64,000 nt of DNA from Candidatus Paraluminiphilus aquimaris (GTDB lineage Bacteria; Pseudomonadota; Gammaproteobacteria; Pseudomonadales; Halieaceae), in the NCBI RefSeq assembly GCF_026230195.1, contig NZ_CP036501.1, positions 806,001-870,000 on the forward strand, read 5' to 3'. The notes beneath the pieces are model-generated. The model did not search any database. It was not told the DNA's origin and saw nothing but the letters and a program-made list of their open reading frames with translations. Position 1 is the first letter of the stretch; each line of letters begins with the position of its first letter. Shown here one piece after another: positions 49,451-56,420 of this stretch. The position numbers were made by a program, and so were the translations under genes.

Positions 49451-50737
49451 CTAAGCGCGATTTTTTCGAGCCGTCATCCACGCTGACGCGGCCTTTTGTT
49501 GAGCCAGTGTTGCTCTGAAAACAGTAAGCTGTGGGTCAGGTTTCCCTGTGCGCCCAATGTTAGCTATTTGCTCATAGAACCAGAACTGGGTTGCGAAAGA
49601 ATTAATGGTCCTCACCGCATTCAGTTTGGTGAGCCACATAAGCCACCTTGGAAGAAGTGAAAGGTTGTCCTCGTAGCGCGTCAGCTCGTCAGCTCCGTCT
49701 AACAATTGGTTGGGTCCCTCTGCATCAACACACAAGGGGCGCCCCACGCCAATCATGTCAGCACCACCGGTCTCTAACACATGATTCATCACTTCTTTTC
49801 GGCGCAAACCGCCCGTCACCATAATGGGAATGGATAATTGCTCACGCATTGCCTTTGCAAAATCGACAAAATACGCTTCGCGCGCAAGCGTGCTGCGCGC
49901 CAACGACTGCTCTTCAATGGGTTCAACACCATCGAGATTAAGTAACCGCGGTTGCTCGTAAGTTCCGCCCGAGATTTCTAGTAAGTCAACGCCCGCCTCA
50001 GCTAACCACTGGGCAACGGTTAACGAGTCATTGAAGTCGAATCCGCCTTTTTGGAAATCGGCGCTATTGAGTTTTACCGAAATTGGGAAGTCGTCTCCCA
50101 ATGCCTCTCGCGCTTTCGTTACGACTGAGACGAGTGCACGAGCACGATTCTCAAGTTCGCCACCCCACTCGTCGTCCCGCTGGTTGGTAAGGGGGCTTAA
50201 GAACTGAGAGAGTAAATAACCGTGTGCGGCGTGAAATTGAACACCGGTAAAGCCTGCTTCTTTGCAGGTGACAGCGCAGTCTACAAAGCGATCAATTAGG
50301 GTTGTGATCTCTTCCGATGTGAGTGCGACGGGTTCACCAAACTGACTCTGTGGCAGTCGCAGTCGCACGGCGGAAGGCGCCTTTGGCGAGGGGTTAACAA
50401 TTTTCTGAGTTTGTCTTCCTGCGTGGCTAATCTGAGCCCACAAATGGTTGCCGTGACGCGTGCCCGCCGATGCCATTTTCTCAAGGGCTTTGAAGGCGCT
50501 CGTAGAGAGTTTGCCGTCAACTATGACGTTCCCTGGGCGTTCCAGATGGTCACCATCCACTTGAATATTGCCAGAGAGTAAGATGCCCGAACCGCCATCG
50601 CTCCATATTCCGTAGAGGCGCTCCAGTTCCTCGGAGGCCGTTCCATCGGGGTGAGCCAAACCCTCTGTCATAGCCGCCTTGCATAGACGGTTGGGTACCA
50701 CCGCACCGCATGGCAGTGTGAGGGGTTGGTCGAGCAT
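49451..50737 (-). CDS. Old yellow enzyme family NADH:flavin oxidoreductase
   Basis: A 428-residue FMN TIM-barrel enzyme, with NRLCKAAMTEGLA at the N-terminus, HLWAQISHAGRQ with the substrate-binding His, FHAAHGYLLSQFLSPLTNQRDDEWGG and VTGGLRR near the FMN phosphate. It lacks the FAD/NAD domains of the FadH-like protein at 31349-33436. It would reduce an activated alkene. AGGAG precedes the ATG. It lies 20 bases after the thioesterase gene on the same strand and is probably co-transcribed with it. Confidence 0.87.
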   Translation of the reverse strand: MLDQPLTLPCGAVVPNRLCKAAMTEGLAHPDGTASEELERLYGIWSDGGSGILLSGNIQVDGDHLERPGNVIVDGKLSTSAFKALEKMASAGTRHGNHLWAQISHAGRQTQKIVNPSPKAPSAVRLRLPQSQFGEPVALTSEEITTLIDRFVDCAVTCKEAGFTGVQFHAAHGYLLSQFLSPLTNQRDDEWGGELENRARALVSVVTKAREALGDDFPISVKLNSADFQKGGFDFNDSLTVAQWLAEAGVDLLEISGGTYEQPRLLNLDGVEPIEEQSLARSTLAREAYFVDFAKAMREQLSIPIMVTGGLRRKEVMNHVLETGGADMIGVGRPLCVDAEGPNQLLDGADELTRYEDNLSLLPRWLMWLTKLNAVRTINSFATQFWFYEQIANIGRTGKPDPQLTVFRATLAQQKAASAWMTARKNRA

Positions 50738-50756: not shown

Positions 50757-51317
50757 TTATTCTTCGGGTTCGAGGGTCACATGACAGCGTTGATCCTGCA
50801 GTAACTCTGCCGAGGCAAGATCATAAACGAAATTCTGCCGATATTTATCCATGAACTCGTTATCTTGAGTACGCAGGCGCTTGCGCTGAAGTGCGCTCAA
50901 ATATCGGCGCACATCATCCTGTGTTTTCAAGATGAGGGCCGGCACCTCTGCAGTCTTGCCGTCGGGACTCTTTGCCACCATGGTGAAGTAGCACGTGTTC
51001 GTGTGTTTACTCACACCTGCCTGCAAATCTTCGGCAACGACTTTGATGCCGACCACGAGCGACTTACGTCCCACATAGTTGACTGACCCCATGAGTTTGA
51101 TAACTTCGCCCACCTCCACCGGCTGTAGGAACTCTACGTTATCGACGGAGACTGTGACGCAGTAGTTTCCCGCGTGTTTGCTGGCGCAAACGTAGGCCAC
51201 CTTGTCCATTAACGACATGAGTGTTCCGCCGTGAACCTTGCCACCAAAGTTGGCGTAACTCGGCACCATAAGTTCAATAATAGTACTCTGCGAGTAAGCG
51301 ACTGTGTGTCCTTCCAC
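50757..51317 (-). CDS. Hotdog-fold acyl-CoA thioesterase
   Basis: A 186-residue thioesterase of the YciA/cytosolic acyl-CoA hydrolase group. The hotdog motif is NFGGKVHGGTLMSLMDKVAY (about residues 22-41), followed by the VTVSVDNVEFLQPV strand and VGRKSLVV. It releases free acid and CoA from acyl-CoAs. The GTG at 51317 is preceded by AAGGA. The C-terminal 50 residues (after KTAEVPAL) extend beyond the fold and contain a charged helix. Confidence 0.87.
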   Translation of the reverse strand: MEGHTVAYSQSTIIELMVPSYANFGGKVHGGTLMSLMDKVAYVCASKHAGNYCVTVSVDNVEFLQPVEVGEVIKLMGSVNYVGRKSLVVGIKVVAEDLQAGVSKHTNTCYFTMVAKSPDGKTAEVPALILKTQDDVRRYLSALQRKRLRTQDNEFMDKYRQNFVYDLASAELLQDQRCHVTLEPEE

Positions 51318-51371: not shown

Positions 51372-52577
51372 TCAGCGCTCATCCTCACTTGGAGTGAGCC
51401 CATAGGGCTCAGCTAGCTTCCATACGTGTGCCGGCACCATCGTACGAAGTCGCTTGGGTGCGGCGCGGCGCAGGTGAAGTATCGACTCAGCGGCCTTCAT
51501 CTCCAACCGCGTGCGCGCGAATTCAAGTCCTTTGGGACCGGTAAGCGGCATTATTTTACCTACGATAGGACGCAGCCATTGCGGCATTCGTCGAAGCGGA
51601 AGTCCACCTGTCGCGCGGCGGGTATTTTCAATGAAGCCCTTCACTGCGCTATGGCGTTTACCTCCGCTCGAGGGCGCTTTTAACGACAGCTCTGAACGAA
51701 TTGAATTTAGGGCGTTTTGACCTTTCTGGTTGCGCACCAACAGCCATTGCTCACCGCGGCCGCCCATGTAGCCAACGGTTATGTCAGACAGCGTGTTGAC
51801 GTAATCAACACAAGTGCGACAGGTGAGAGGAAAGAAATCATCTCTCAAGTCAGCGATCGGCAGCTGGAGGAAAGGGATGCGCCGTGTCTTTCCACCGTGG
51901 AACCGCAGCTCTACGTGAAAGTCAGGCATAAACTCCAAGTAGTTAATGCGCTCCGGGTTGTCGTCGAGAAGTGACAAAAACTCGTGGAAATTTTCCGTGG
52001 TAGTGTTATCCGAACAGGGTGTCCCGATAACCACTAAATGCTCTAAATCCAGTTCGTTCTCGAGGGCTCGCAGTGCATAGATTTGACAAGGTATACCGAT
52101 AACAGCAAGTCGCTTATGACCCGCGGCGATGGCAGGCTCTAATTGTTCCAGAAGCGGCGCGTATCCCATGCGCATACCGCGGCAACTCGCCATGTCCTCG
52201 GCCGCTGTGACTAGTCGCGGCACGGGCTTCCAAGGGTCGTGTTCGTCAGGTCCCACGCAGAGAACGGCCGATACTTCACCAGAGGTTAATAAAGCTTCAC
52301 CCAGTCGTGTGGTAATTCCTGTCCACTGGGCGCCGTCGCGTCGTGGCTTGAGCGCTGCTTGATGCATTTCCTGGATAACACCAAAGAAGGGTTCGATCTC
52401 ACCGTCGGTCTGACGCACGCGACCGTGCACTGCACTCTCAAGCCGGGCGTAATCGGGATTGATAAATTGGCAGGCATAACCACAGCGACCGGGATCGCTG
52501 GTGCGGCTGATACCGCAATCCGTGCAAAGCTTACGATGCGGTGCGACGTCTTGTTCCTGCACCGCTATGAGGGTCAT
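51372..52577 (-). CDS. FrhB/BciB-like iron-sulfur flavoprotein
   Basis: A 401-residue member of the coenzyme F420 hydrogenase beta-subunit family, closest in pattern to the ferredoxin-dependent divinyl-chlorophyllide 8-vinyl reductase BciB and the related 7-hydroxymethyl chlorophyll reductase. Cysteines 18, 21, 32 and 36 (CTDCGISRTSDPGRCGYAC) and later CRTC probably hold iron-sulfur clusters; CRGMRMGYAPLLE and GIPCQIYALRALE are the N- and C-domain signatures. Its ATG overlaps the preceding stop (ATGA), so it belongs to the cytochrome operon. No other bacteriochlorophyll gene is in the window, so the substrate is open. Confidence 0.8.
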   Translation of the reverse strand: MTLIAVQEQDVAPHRKLCTDCGISRTSDPGRCGYACQFINPDYARLESAVHGRVRQTDGEIEPFFGVIQEMHQAALKPRRDGAQWTGITTRLGEALLTSGEVSAVLCVGPDEHDPWKPVPRLVTAAEDMASCRGMRMGYAPLLEQLEPAIAAGHKRLAVIGIPCQIYALRALENELDLEHLVVIGTPCSDNTTTENFHEFLSLLDDNPERINYLEFMPDFHVELRFHGGKTRRIPFLQLPIADLRDDFFPLTCRTCVDYVNTLSDITVGYMGGRGEQWLLVRNQKGQNALNSIRSELSLKAPSSGGKRHSAVKGFIENTRRATGGLPLRRMPQWLRPIVGKIMPLTGPKGLEFARTRLEMKAAESILHLRRAAPKRLRTMVPAHVWKLAEPYGLTPSEDER

Positions 52578-54019
52578 CCGTCTAGACCCAACATGTATTT
52601 CGCGACCAGTAAGCGCATATCCTCAGAGACATGTCCTTGAGGCGGCATGGAAGGGAAGTCTGGCCGTCGTTTTACGGGGTTCGCCACATACTCGGCGAGC
52701 GCTTCTGCGTCATCACCGTACTGCGCCTGAATCACAAGCGCAGGTGGACCGATCAGACGTACGTTGTAGGCATGACAGCCTGCACAGATGCCGTTATAGA
52801 CAACCTCGGCACCGTTCGCATCTGCTGTAATTACCCTTGGATCAGCGGGTGCCTCTAACATTTTCGTGATGAGCTGCCGCGATGTCCCTATATCGTCTGC
52901 CGTCGCTACCGCGTCCGCGGCGCGTACGGTAGGCGCATCACAGTCGGCCCATTCCTCAAGACCGTAAGACCGGTAGGCCTCTCGCCGAGAGATACAGCTG
53001 CCACGCGCCTTATCGGCGGCGCTCTGATAGGCCAGTATGTCCGGACCTTTGGTGCTGAACTTACTCAGCATCAACAACTTCATCTCTCCATCGGGGTCGT
53101 TACCATTATCGAACATCACATTGTTGCGGATCTCGACATTGTCAGAGTGCGGGTCTGAATCGCGGTCACTGGCCACTTCGGTGACAAAGTCACCACTGGT
53201 AACAATGATGCCGCCTGTATTATTTCCCGTGATGATGTTGTCTTCGATGATGACTCGATCTCCTGACATCACAAGGACACCGGTGCCCGACGGAATACCT
53301 GCGACCAATGAACCGGGGATCGCAAAGTTGGGCGTGTTGTTGCTGGTTACAAAATTACGACGGATAACGGCGTCATAGGATGACTTAATGGGTAGGCCTG
53401 GGGTGATGAAGACCAATATCCCACCAGTATTATTTCTGGCGACGTTGCCTTCGACGAGAACATGCCGACTGTTTTCAACTTCGATACCCGCTACGTTATC
53501 GAATACCTGATTGTTTCGAACATCGATGTAGTCAGACATGCCGACATAGATGGCGGCGTCCTCAATTTCGCTTAGTATGTTGTTCTCGATAAGACCGTTA
53601 TGACCGAACTCGGGGAAAATGCCATAAAGGCCGGTATCGATGACCCAGTTGTTTCTGATCGAGAAGTTATTTCCCGACTGCCCCATGATGGCATTGCCTT
53701 TGTACTTCGTGATTTTGAACCACTCGACGCTGAAGCCGTTTCCCGAATACAAAATGGCATCGTTAAGCACTTTTTCGCCATCGAGATGTGGCCACTCGCC
53801 GTCCTCAACGACACCAATCAATGAGATATCGTCCTTATCGACGAACACCGTCTCGTTATAGGTGCCCGGGTAAACCCTGATCGTGTCCCCAGCTTTTGCT
53901 TGCGTGACTGCTGCCTGGATCGACTCGCCTTCTTTCACTTCGAGCGTAGCGGCTTGTGCCACCCCTGTCGGTAGCGACGCCATCAGAATCCATAAAAATA
54001 GGCTGAGTTTTATTTTCAT
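52574..54019 (-). CDS. Parallel beta-helix protein fused to a c-type cytochrome
   Basis: A 481-residue secreted protein. Residues 1-23 are a signal peptide; residues about 30-310 are right-handed parallel beta-helix repeats with Asn ladders (NNWVID, NNILSE, RNNQVFDN, DNIITGNNTGG), as in the NosD-like beta_helix_1 family; residues about 395-481 are a cytochrome c domain with C412-AGC-H416 and Met458 as probable axial ligand. The join of the two domains is unusual. It sits between a MauG-like peroxidase gene (TAATG overlap) and the FrhB-like gene (ATGA overlap). Confidence 0.85.
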   Translation of the reverse strand: MKIKLSLFLWILMASLPTGVAQAATLEVKEGESIQAAVTQAKAGDTIRVYPGTYNETVFVDKDDISLIGVVEDGEWPHLDGEKVLNDAILYSGNGFSVEWFKITKYKGNAIMGQSGNNFSIRNNWVIDTGLYGIFPEFGHNGLIENNILSEIEDAAIYVGMSDYIDVRNNQVFDNVAGIEVENSRHVLVEGNVARNNTGGILVFITPGLPIKSSYDAVIRRNFVTSNNTPNFAIPGSLVAGIPSGTGVLVMSGDRVIIEDNIITGNNTGGIIVTSGDFVTEVASDRDSDPHSDNVEIRNNVMFDNGNDPDGEMKLLMLSKFSTKGPDILAYQSAADKARGSCISRREAYRSYGLEEWADCDAPTVRAADAVATADDIGTSRQLITKMLEAPADPRVITADANGAEVVYNGICAGCHAYNVRLIGPPALVIQAQYGDDAEALAEYVANPVKRRPDFPSMPPQGHVSEDMRLLVAKYMLGLDG

Positions 54020-55218
54020 TATTGTGACCTCGAAGTCAGCTTTTGATCGTTTATTACTCGCCCTGGCGTCAGGCCGGACGGAACGCGCTCAGGTATGCGG
54101 GGCATAAAACCCTCATCGGTTAAAGCGTGGAGGAAATCGACCAATCTGTCGAGTTCTTCGTCACGCAGATTGGGTTCCCAGATATGCCAATGGATCAGGA
54201 GGTTCTCGTCCTTTGGCACTGCATGCCCTCTACCCCCGTTATAAAACGCCACGGTATCGCGCAGGGTCTTAAAGTTTCCCTGGTGCATATAAGGCGCCGT
54301 TTTTGCAATGTTACGAAGACTCGGCACCCTGAAGCCACCGTGCTGGCTGGGTATGCCTGATGTTGCGCCGGCTCCAGGGTCAAAGGGTCGGCCTTCTGGC
54401 TCCGGGACGCCAATAATGGCGATTTCCTGATTACTAAAGAGCGGGGGTGTATGACACTCCCCACAGCGAGAGACAAATGAGCGAAAGACGTTGAGGCCTT
54501 CTAACTCGCTCGGGGACAGGCTGTTGTGCAGGCCATGTGCGTAGAAATCATACCGACTGTTGAGTGAAATCAGCGAAGCCTCAAAGGCGCTCAGTGCTGC
54601 GTAGACCTGGTTTAGACTGATGTTTGGTGTTCCGAACGCGTCCGAGAAAAGCCGTAGGTAGGTTTCGTTACTTGAGAGATCTTCGAGCAGTTGCTCAGGC
54701 GTATTACCCATTTCATTCGACGCATACAAAGGTCCGAGTAGCTGGGTTTCAAGAGAGGCTTTACTGCCATCCCAAAGTAAGGTGTCAAAGAAACCTATAT
54801 TCCAAAGACTGGGGGCCGAGCGATCGAGGCTTACACCATTGATGCCAACCGCGCGACCTCGGCCGTCTGCGAAGCCATGGTCAGGGTCGTGGCAGCTAGA
54901 ACAGGCCATTGTATTGTCGCCTGAGAGCAATGGATCAAAGAAAAGGTAACGTCCAAGGTCAATTACCTGCGGACTGAATCCGTCACGCAGCTCGGGGAGC
55001 CCCGCGCGAGGGCCGCCGACGCCGCTGTTGTGAGGTGAGCCGTAATGGTTATAGAGGCTGTCGAGTTTGCAGACCGACTGCTCATTAATTTTGAAACCCG
55101 CTGGGCAGTTATCGACTAGAGCGAATTCACCGGCCTCGCCTTTTGCGATGGCGGCGGAGATCAGCCAAAGCAAAAGTAATAGGTTGGCGCCAAATTTACT
55201 CAGCGATGGAAACCACAT
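54019..55218 (-). CDS. MauG/CcpA-like di-haem cytochrome c peroxidase
   Basis: A 399-residue secreted di-haem protein: signal peptide about residues 1-25, haem motifs CSSCH (106-110) and CGECH (252-256), and the family segments LGRYLFFDPLLSG, TAPYMHQGNFKTL and DFLHALTD. It either removes hydrogen peroxide or oxidises a partner as MauG does. Its start overlaps the upstream cytochrome c4-like stop by 23 bases, and its stop overlaps the next start, so all are translated as one unit. Confidence 0.88.
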   Translation of the reverse strand: MWFPSLSKFGANLLLLLWLISAAIAKGEAGEFALVDNCPAGFKINEQSVCKLDSLYNHYGSPHNSGVGGPRAGLPELRDGFSPQVIDLGRYLFFDPLLSGDNTMACSSCHDPDHGFADGRGRAVGINGVSLDRSAPSLWNIGFFDTLLWDGSKASLETQLLGPLYASNEMGNTPEQLLEDLSSNETYLRLFSDAFGTPNISLNQVYAALSAFEASLISLNSRYDFYAHGLHNSLSPSELEGLNVFRSFVSRCGECHTPPLFSNQEIAIIGVPEPEGRPFDPGAGATSGIPSQHGGFRVPSLRNIAKTAPYMHQGNFKTLRDTVAFYNGGRGHAVPKDENLLIHWHIWEPNLRDEELDRLVDFLHALTDEGFMPRIPERVPSGLTPGRVINDQKLTSRSQ

Positions 55219-55810
55219 AAGCCGTCACGTCGTCGATAAGCTGTGGGTCTTTTAACGCTTTGGATAGCCTTGCCATCTGTTGACCATACTTGTCGTTGGG
55301 GTGAGTACCGCGTTTACCCTTTGCAAACTCACCATACTGACGCGTCAGGTAGTCACTACTAAGTCCTAGCAAATTGGGGGCGCCCAGCGCATCGTTCCCG
55401 TTTGCACCCGTTCCGTGACAGGCGCCACAGTAGGCGGTGTACAAATCTTTACCCCGGGCAACATCGCCATTTCTTGGCACCGGCGACATGACGTTGCTGT
55501 CAGGCAGTTCGCTAATGGCCATCGTTGCACTGCTCAGAGTTCGCGTGTCGAGCGTCGCAATCGCGGCGGTCATCGACTGCGCGTAGTGATTATCTTTGCT
55601 GCGCCAGCCTTCTTTGAAGCCCTGCAGTTGCCGCTTGATATAGGATTCAGATAGGCGAGTCAGGTTGGGCGCACCCAGCGTATCGTTGCCCGCCCCAGTC
55701 GCGCCGTGACAGTGTGCGCAATGGGTCTGATAGCCGTCGTCAGCGGTAGCTGGCATCGTCGCCGCGACGAGGGTCATCAACGCCGCGCATATCCAGTTAG
55801 TAAGGCTCAT
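55196..55810 (-). CDS. Cytochrome c4-like di-haem electron carrier
   Basis: A 204-residue periplasmic cytochrome with a signal peptide (about 1-23) and two similar halves, each with CXXCH (Cys31-His35 and Cys128-His132), a GAPNL segment and a Met that can be the sixth ligand (QSM about 80, QQM about 181). It is the first gene of the four-gene redox operon and would carry electrons to or from the peroxidase-like protein. Confidence 0.87.
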   Translation of the reverse strand: MSLTNWICAALMTLVAATMPATADDGYQTHCAHCHGATGAGNDTLGAPNLTRLSESYIKRQLQGFKEGWRSKDNHYAQSMTAAIATLDTRTLSSATMAISELPDSNVMSPVPRNGDVARGKDLYTAYCGACHGTGANGNDALGAPNLLGLSSDYLTRQYGEFAKGKRGTHPNDKYGQQMARLSKALKDPQLIDDVTAYVVSIAE

Positions 55811-55955: not shown

Positions 55956-56420
55956 ATGGAATTCTTGAAACCGGATTGTCGTGCAACCCTAAGAGAGGGG
56001 CTCGACGAACTCTACCGCTTCGCGCCAGAGGTGGCAGAGGTATCTGAGCGCAAAGGCAAAAGCTTCAGAGATCACGACCTCACCCACGTGCTATTTGGTT
56101 GTGATACGTCGCTAAAAGGCGAGATTTTACTGAAGCCTTGGATCTTGTTTGGCACGACCATTACGCTTGATGAAATAAAAGCCTACCAAAGAGACCCCGA
56201 GGTTCAGCGGTTGAATCAAGAGGGTGTTGACATGCTGGGGGGGCGAATCAAAGCCTACCTATTGGCTTTTGTTTACTTTACCCCACTGTTTTTCTGGATT
56301 TGGGTTCGCCGTGTCCGGCGCATGTCAGCCAAATGGCCTCACTCGGAGGTGAGCGAGGCGATGTTAGACACACCGCTCGATGAGCTGCGAAGAACTTACA
56401 GAATTGAGCTATACCACTAA
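55956..56420 (+). CDS. Coq4-family protein
   Basis: A 154-residue protein with the Coq4 zinc motif HDxxH-x11-E exactly kept: His40, Asp41, His44 and Glu56. Residues about 96-113 are a membrane segment, near the C-terminus. Coq4 acts in ubiquinone biosynthesis (C1 decarboxylation and hydroxylation) or organises the enzyme complex; bacterial homologues are uncommon in the textbook pathway. GGGGG precedes the ATG. It is isolated, between the cytochrome operon and rpoD. Medium confidence that it acts in quinone synthesis. Confidence 0.72.
   Translation: MEFLKPDCRATLREGLDELYRFAPEVAEVSERKGKSFRDHDLTHVLFGCDTSLKGEILLKPWILFGTTITLDEIKAYQRDPEVQRLNQEGVDMLGGRIKAYLLAFVYFTPLFFWIWVRRVRRMSAKWPHSEVSEAMLDTPLDELRRTYRIELYH

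Follow-up and report, generated by a model that had tools for sequence, protein, structure and literature searches.

A conserved di-haem enzyme and beta-helix cytochrome unit of several bacterial phyla, joined in one marine genus to a probable bacteriochlorophyll gene

In a 64,000-nucleotide stretch of the Candidatus Paraluminiphilus aquimaris genome (NZ_CP036501.1, positions 806,001 to 870,000; hereafter the window), which lies on a single 2.72-Mb contig that makes up the whole genome, four overlapping genes encode a c4-like cytochrome, a di-haem enzyme of the cytochrome c peroxidase (CCP)/MauG/MbnH superfamily, a right-handed beta-helix protein ending in a cytochrome c domain, and an FrhB-domain iron-sulfur flavoprotein. 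A sequence-only reading had treated them as one four-gene operon, of which the haem/beta-helix part stands as a conserved unit and the four-gene system does not. We find that the first three genes (the trio) form a widespread periplasmic haem system built round the beta-helix protein, and that the FrhB gene is a separate unit, very probably bciB, which encodes the 8-vinyl reductase of bacteriochlorophyll synthesis. Most likely, this gene became joined to the haem module, to which it is unrelated, in a single group of marine bacteria. To the explanation as a whole, namely that a periplasmic oxidative module and a cytoplasmic BciB are two unrelated units brought together, we assign a probability of about 40%.

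Conservation and distribution of the trio

Scanning named genomes returned 395 places that encode relatives of the beta-helix protein, the best 80 of which were kept and examined; some metagenome bins among these may carry wrong names. The gene immediately upstream of the beta-helix gene is the di-haem gene at 77 of the 80 loci at E 1e-5 and at 76 at E 1e-30. The three loci lacking a match (L136, L146 and L150) start close to a contig end, no more than a few hundred bases away. The match is weak at L149, where a run of N intervenes and the di-haem C-terminus is still readable. Among these best 80, every testable locus has the di-haem gene, and we are nearly certain that the di-haem/beta-helix pair is a real conserved unit. 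The loci come from several phyla, which bears out the expectation of the sequence-only reading that a genuine system would recur in distant lineages: the hosts are proteobacteria, Bacteroidota and one Myxococcaceae record, and include Spongiibacteraceae, Zhongshania, Aliikangiella, Colwellia, Simiduia, Oxalobacteraceae and several Flavobacteriia, with titles such as Luminiphilus sp. and Halieaceae bacterium among the close loci.

A c4-type gene lies upstream at 63 of the 80 loci (tblastn). Of the 17 loci without it, five run into contig ends and the remaining twelve are mostly from Bacteroidota records; the gene is present at some Flavobacteriales loci. Its product is likely exported, the N-terminal signal having been judged by eye. 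Pairwise identities of the di-haem and beta-helix proteins correlate across 44 loci (the divergent L070 excluded; r 0.60, reached by none of 2000 permutations), a result that ignores the relatedness of the genomes, as do the two tests of association given below, and that shared ancestry alone could explain. Open reading frame (ORF) extension at L141 and L157 had raised the suspicion of a di-haem/beta-helix fusion, which stop codons between the frames rule out. No paper describing the trio was found in the searchable text, from which most subscription papers are missing; the matching passages of PMC8756737 deal with an unrelated left-handed beta-helix and a table entry for MauG, with no bearing on the trio. 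The beta-helix family and the enzyme superfamily are both already known.

The di-haem enzyme and the beta-helix cytochrome

The window di-haem protein contains PF03150, which agrees with its earlier placement in the MauG superfamily, and is best called a separate subfamily of the CCP/MauG/MbnH superfamily. Its closest NCBIfam model is that of MbnH (TIGR04039, 202.4 bits, cut-off 362.85); on that of MauG it has 155.8 bits (TIGR03791, cut-off 443.85), and its score is also below the cut-off of the His-Xaa-Ser MauG-like model; its best PDB sequence match is MbnH (6e1c). At E 1e-10, all three models are matched by every one of 45 aligned di-haem sequences (the window, 38 of the best 80 loci and six loci of the relatives sample introduced below). 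The AlphaFold2 model (predicted local distance difference test, pLDDT, 86.7) matches the folds of CCP, MacA, MbnH and MauG alike and has no match at E <=0.001 in a viral structure library.

Invariant in the alignment are the first haem site, C252 and H256 of the second, Trp139, Glu169 and a His-Trp-His motif at 343-345, while C255 (44/45, one X), Met311 (44/45) and Trp149 (43/45) are nearly so. The peroxidase-type Glu has a catalytic role, and the His of the IGH motif is functional in classical bacterial CCPs. That His, present in 1zzh and 1iqc and absent from MbnH 6e1c, is replaced in 42 of the 45 sequences (Ile 19, Val 6): at the aligned position 126 the window enzyme has Ile and three sequences have His, with His at the next position in five. 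In MauG, the axial ligand on the six-coordinate haem is Tyr; here, Met311 of the PYMH site is, by analogy, the predicted ligand.

The beta-helix protein belongs to TIGR03805 (190.3 bits, cut-off 141.5); membership of the NosD family (TIGR04247) was ruled out, at 57.7 bits against a cut-off of 300. Its C-terminal cytochrome scores under the Pfam cut-off (18.9 versus 27 bits), and C412, C415, H416 and M458 are each kept in 49 of 49 aligned sequences (the window, 42 of the best 80 loci and six loci of the relatives sample). The AlphaFold2 model (pLDDT 82.2) shows a beta-helix, and its C-terminal helical domain is partly of low confidence. On the beta-helix itself, M112, F135, Y158 and E180, together with Q114, M161, E182 and N183, are kept in 48 or 49 of the 49 sequences (M112 48, M161 49), Met251 is kept in 46, and His186 is nearly invariant. 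From sequence and DSSP rather than coordinates, we assign M112, F135, Y158 and E180 to what is probably a single outward-facing row, with Q114, M161, E182 and N183 as its neighbours. The beta-helix domain carries no fully invariant Cys or His outside the haem site, and the 49 sequences share no invariant Trp, the best being W76 (41/49). The best Foldseek matches of the model are mostly carbohydrate-active lyases, epimerases and hydrolases, with a dehydratase, at low TM-scores (TMq 0.20-0.45 among the 50 matches listed).

The FrhB gene and bacteriochlorophyll synthesis

The FrhB protein contains both FrhB domains (PF04422 and PF04432), and its best solved relative is the Arabidopsis 7-hydroxymethyl chlorophyll a reductase (HCAR, 5dqr; E 1.2e-67 over residues 13-394), followed by an F420 family protein at E 7.7e-17. 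Eight Cys are invariant in 13 FrhB sequences, matching the two 4Fe-4S clusters given for BciB in section 4.5 of PMC13297055. Its distribution was followed in 97 relatives (G000-G096, 56 of them in the host genus) and in 398 genomes of the phylum. Among the relatives, FrhB is confined to 17 genomes of a single genus; the reaction-centre family PF00124, found in 44 of the 97, accompanies it in every one of them. In the phylum sample, all 15 carriers (E <=1e-20) fall among the 31 genomes with PF00124 (Fisher p 5e-19, kinship ignored). Carriers in both samples are chlorophototrophs, as expected of a BciB, and in G336 the gene adjoins a phytoene-synthase-like gene (388 bits, cut-off 500), about 8 kb from pufLM.

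FrhB goes with phototrophy rather than with the trio. It adjoins the beta-helix gene at 10 of the best 80 trio loci, within one genus only; the sequence-only reading had named confinement of the four-gene order to close relatives as the outcome that would speak against a system, and that is the outcome here. Among the 97 relatives, 15 of the 17 carriers have it next to the beta-helix gene. Of the other two, G019 has its locus cut by a contig edge, and G053 has FrhB immediately behind rpoD, without a trio, and a divergent di-haem/beta-helix pair (44% and 42% identity) elsewhere. Genus members without FrhB carry the trio behind rpoD (L074, L075 and L076), and at L072 a TonB receptor sits between rpoD and the trio. 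On the simplest reading, the two units share a spot behind rpoD at which each part has been gained or lost. Two ORFs beside the photosynthesis genes of L055 (924-2327 and 2324-3799) have matches in G016 and G053, and none in the 60 kb of G000 that was fetched.

A second kind of putative 8-vinyl reductase gene complements this distribution. We take the L178 and L183 genes to be BciA-like on the strength of a motif, their distribution and their proximity to pufLM (about 7 kb in G114 and about 1 kb in G466); none of their NCBIfam and PDB matches names BciA. BciA-like genes are found in 31 of the 97 relatives (E <=1e-25), with no overlap with the 17 FrhB carriers (hypergeometric 9e-8 within the 56 genus genomes, again ignoring kinship), and fill 22 of the 27 phototrophs that lack FrhB. 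Nine genomes, 54 to 88% complete, have a BciA-like gene without detected PF00124 (G013, G015, G026, G029, G031, G040, G043, G050 and G059), which missing sequence may explain. In the phylum sample, strong BciA-like matches (E <1e-60) occur in 10 of the 31 phototrophs, no FrhB carrier among them. Inside one marine genus, BciA-like and BciB-like genes are cleanly exchanged.

Three observations speak against the identification as bciB: neither reductase is found in five of the 44 phototroph relatives (G021, G023, G024, G025 and G034), nor in six of the 31 phototrophs of the phylum sample, and the FrhB carriers G191, G429 and G480 have weak BciA-like matches (E ~1e-14, 28-30% identity), which we take for other reductases. 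As far as its sequence shows, the FrhB protein may instead have HCAR-type activity.

Neighbouring genes and locus layout

At 17 of 52 trio loci outside the genus, a count inflated by close relatives, the gene next to the trio on the same strand, on one side or the other, is that of a TonB receptor. The hosts are the Spongiibacter/Zhongshania group, Aliikangiella, a groundwater gammaproteobacterium and two further proteobacterial records; at L127, where the ORF call is confused, adjacency rests on a separate look at the locus. A TonB receptor also adjoins L160, in divergent orientation, and lies upstream of c4 at six loci of the genus, while downstream of the pair there is a SusC-like receptor in Cellulophaga (L154) and, judged by eye, one in Flagellimonas (L148). 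This linkage is a lead. Among four receptors that were scanned, matches to siderophore-type models stay under cut-off, and just one of the four matches the TonB-copper model (25.6 of 472 bits). In the PDB, one receptor resembles siderophore, cobalamin, haem and colicin receptors, with modest scores. No single pathway emerges from the other neighbours that Pfam names (DUF2804, a histidine kinase, a subtilase and a LytTR regulator). By eye, a gene resembling short-chain dehydrogenases/reductases follows the trio at L131, L145 and L155, and L145 also has a fatty-acid-oxidation-type gene and a phytoene-dehydrogenase-like gene.

The four ORFs of the sequence-only reading are present in the window as described, and its three junctions are confirmed (Table 1): genes 1 and 2 overlap by 23 bases (55196-55218), genes 2 and 3 share one base in a TAATG at 54019, and genes 3 and 4 overlap by four bases in an ATGA (52574-52577). 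CxxCH motifs number two in gene 1 (residues 31 and 128), two in gene 2 (106 and 252), one in gene 3 (412) and none in gene 4. The four-base overlap between genes 3 and 4, as [AG]TGA, is kept in all 15 loci that have both genes together; because the overlaps are conserved, the FrhB gene is likely co-transcribed, and its translation joined, with the trio in this lineage.

Table 1. Genes of the locus, with coordinates in the window
Feature	Coordinates	Strand	Sequence basis
c4-like di-haem c-type cytochrome, trio gene 1, 204 amino acids	55196..55810	-	two CxxCH, Cytochrom_C/CBB3
CCP/MauG/MbnH superfamily di-haem enzyme, trio gene 2, 399 amino acids	54019..55218	-	PF03150 (CCP_MauG)
right-handed beta-helix protein with C-terminal cytochrome c domain, trio gene 3, 481 amino acids	52574..54019	-	TIGR03805, Beta_helix/NosD
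FrhB-domain iron-sulfur flavoprotein, probable BciB, gene 4, 401 amino acids	51372..52577	-	FrhB_FdhB N and C
4HBT thioesterase, possibly same transcript	50757..51317	-	PF03061, 71 bits
Old-yellow-enzyme-type (OYE) NADH:flavin oxidoreductase, possibly same transcript	49451..50737	-	PF00724, 158 bits

The thioesterase gene starts 54 bases past FrhB and the OYE-type gene 19 bases further on, both on the same strand. No terminator-like site was seen on the minus strand between FrhB and the thioesterase gene, and the transcript may therefore hold six genes, from the trio through the OYE-type flavoenzyme. In the lineage with FrhB adjoining the trio, the thioesterase gene lies 3' of FrhB wherever the contig runs on, and the OYE-type gene has the same distribution in the regions fetched; in G053 (L071), the thioesterase gene was not seen adjoining FrhB. 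A small Coq4-like ORF (window 55956-56420, plus strand; PF05019 21.0 bits, cut-off 22.9) is divergent from the trio, and in six of the seven FrhB-lineage regions fetched, rpoD and the trio have a homologue of it between them.

Discussion

Conservation, gene linkage, residue patterns and the association with phototrophy are what we observed; the chemistry of every step, the way in which electrons run, the substrate and the activity of BciB are inferred. With peroxide, the MbnH-like di-haem enzyme would reach a high-valent haem state, in which it would oxidise the beta-helix cytochrome at the face comprising Y132, Y158, M161, E180, E182 and N183, or else a ligand attached to that face. The haem at the C-terminus of the beta-helix protein, together with the c4 cytochrome, would link the system with the respiratory chain, giving electrons to it or taking them from it, and the TonB receptor present in several lineages may deliver the ligand there. 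BciB, for its part, would be a cytoplasmic 8-vinyl reductase, the gene of which apparently became coupled in translation to the trio upstream of it, in a single lineage of the genus. MauG and MbnH oxidise their partner proteins through Trp chemistry, and because no Trp of the beta-helix protein is invariant, this is unlikely to be the conserved reaction here; a Trp-derived cofactor on the beta-helix was ruled out as such. We consider it unlikely that across phyla an MbnH-type oxidase builds a modification derived from Tyr or Met, or a metal site, into the Y158/M161/E180/E182 face, which would make the beta-helix protein a redox enzyme for a TonB-imported substrate.

Several observations weigh against the periplasmic half of this explanation. 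The missing invariant Trp on the presumed partner is one, and the failure of the window enzyme to reach either the MbnH or the MauG cut-off is another; in the fold search, classical peroxidases rank level with MbnH. The correlation of identities may come from common descent alone, as noted. Finally, a TonB neighbour is absent from the window trio and from 35 of the 52 loci outside the genus, and ORFs resembling TonB receptors are common, two being recognisable by eye in the 64-kb window.

The conserved face could alternatively be that of a periplasmic dehydrogenase, oxidising an imported substrate (a sugar acid or a lipid), with electrons leaving through the beta-helix haem, the di-haem protein and c4 towards a terminal oxidase; the di-haem protein would then conduct electrons instead of acting as an oxidant. 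The Tyr/Glu patch common to the trio and a sister family discussed below, the enzymes found by Foldseek, the TonB or SusC-type receptors adjoining in several lineages and the c4-like gene that opens the trio are all in line with this proposal. The Foldseek matches, however, are weak and generic to the fold, the peroxidase Glu is kept in 45 of 45 sequences, and we know of no organic redox cofactor on a beta-helix; on balance, we find a dehydrogenase doubtful. Retention of that Glu in a CCP fold would be expected if the enzyme were a variant cytochrome c peroxidase serving peroxide defence with its own donors, the beta-helix merely tethering a donor haem, and c4 cytochromes and Met-ligated c domains are ordinary peroxidase donors. 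Peroxide defence would, however, leave the strongly conserved beta-helix face and the TonB linkage unexplained, and the IGH His of CCPs is mostly gone, which makes it an improbable account.

Handling of copper or another metal, with an MbnH-like enzyme preparing a metal site on a NosD-like, TonB-fed beta-helix, would fit MbnH being closest in both NCBIfam and PDB (the title of 6e1c mentions microbial copper homeostasis), and also the conserved Met112, Met161 and Met251 and the nearly invariant His186. Yet the lack of any Cys or His kept in every sequence of the beta-helix domain, haem site apart, the NosD score far under cut-off and the single low TonB-copper match among four receptors make such a role very unlikely. 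The sequence-only reading, in which a periplasmic chain is wired to FrhB as a cytoplasmic reductase on the same electron path, has in its favour the overlap preserved in the 15 adjacent loci of the lineage, and found no other support. FrhB follows phototrophy rather than the trio and makes most sense as a bacteriochlorophyll enzyme; 70 of the best 80 trio loci have no FrhB beside the beta-helix gene (L114 and L115 being contig-end cuts), G053 has FrhB away from any trio, and the four genes include no membrane component between the two sides. We regard such a four-part chain as almost certainly wrong, and favour two unrelated units joined in one lineage. What looks like a four-gene system can, it appears, be a pigment gene stuck to an unrelated module.

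Comparison with known systems places the two units apart. The FrhB protein resembles BciB and HCAR in its full-length similarity to HCAR, its eight Cys and its exclusively phototrophic carriers, and differs in that the window gene is not part of the photosynthesis cluster and is coupled to a haem module with no relation to it. The trio enzyme shares with MauG the fold, two c haems and the peroxidase-type Glu, whereas it has Met at the presumed axial position, a presumed partner without a conserved Trp, and a TIGR03791 score far below the cut-off. MbnH, which pairs with the copper-binding partner MbnP encoded alongside it, is the closest sequence family, and in both systems enzyme and partner are side by side; the trio enzyme, however, falls below the family cut-off, has an invariant HWH motif, and is paired with a beta-helix cytochrome without an invariant Trp. 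Few enzymes of the MauG/MbnH type have known targets, to our knowledge, and the trio contributes an enzyme and a partner conserved together across several phyla, with a candidate face and two Met specific to the subfamily.

These two Met emerge from comparison with the TIGR03805/TIGR03806 pair (the SO2930-type di-haem cytochrome), in which a homologous beta-helix has the same conserved face as the trio: Y132, D154, Y158, E180, E182 and N183 are kept in 11 or 12 of 12 sister beta-helices from the relatives. Eleven of the 12 adjoin or are fused with a TIGR03806 match, the exception being L235; no TIGR03806 partner was found in G000, and sister system and trio co-exist in G083 and G090. Four loci encode the sister beta-helix and the TIGR03806-type haem protein as one ORF (L233, 1105-3507, 800 amino acids; L228, 1325-3703, 792; L229, 1460-3982, 840; L230, 1391-4531, 1046), and such fusions suggest that the two proteins act jointly in that system. 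The sister pair differs from the trio in that the partner is of another haem family, the beta-helix lacks the C-terminal cytochrome, and positions 161 and 112 are Gln (11/12) and Lys (9/12), where the trio has Met at both. So two kinds of haem protein pair with one kind of beta-helix face, and the two Met mark the MbnH-like pairing.

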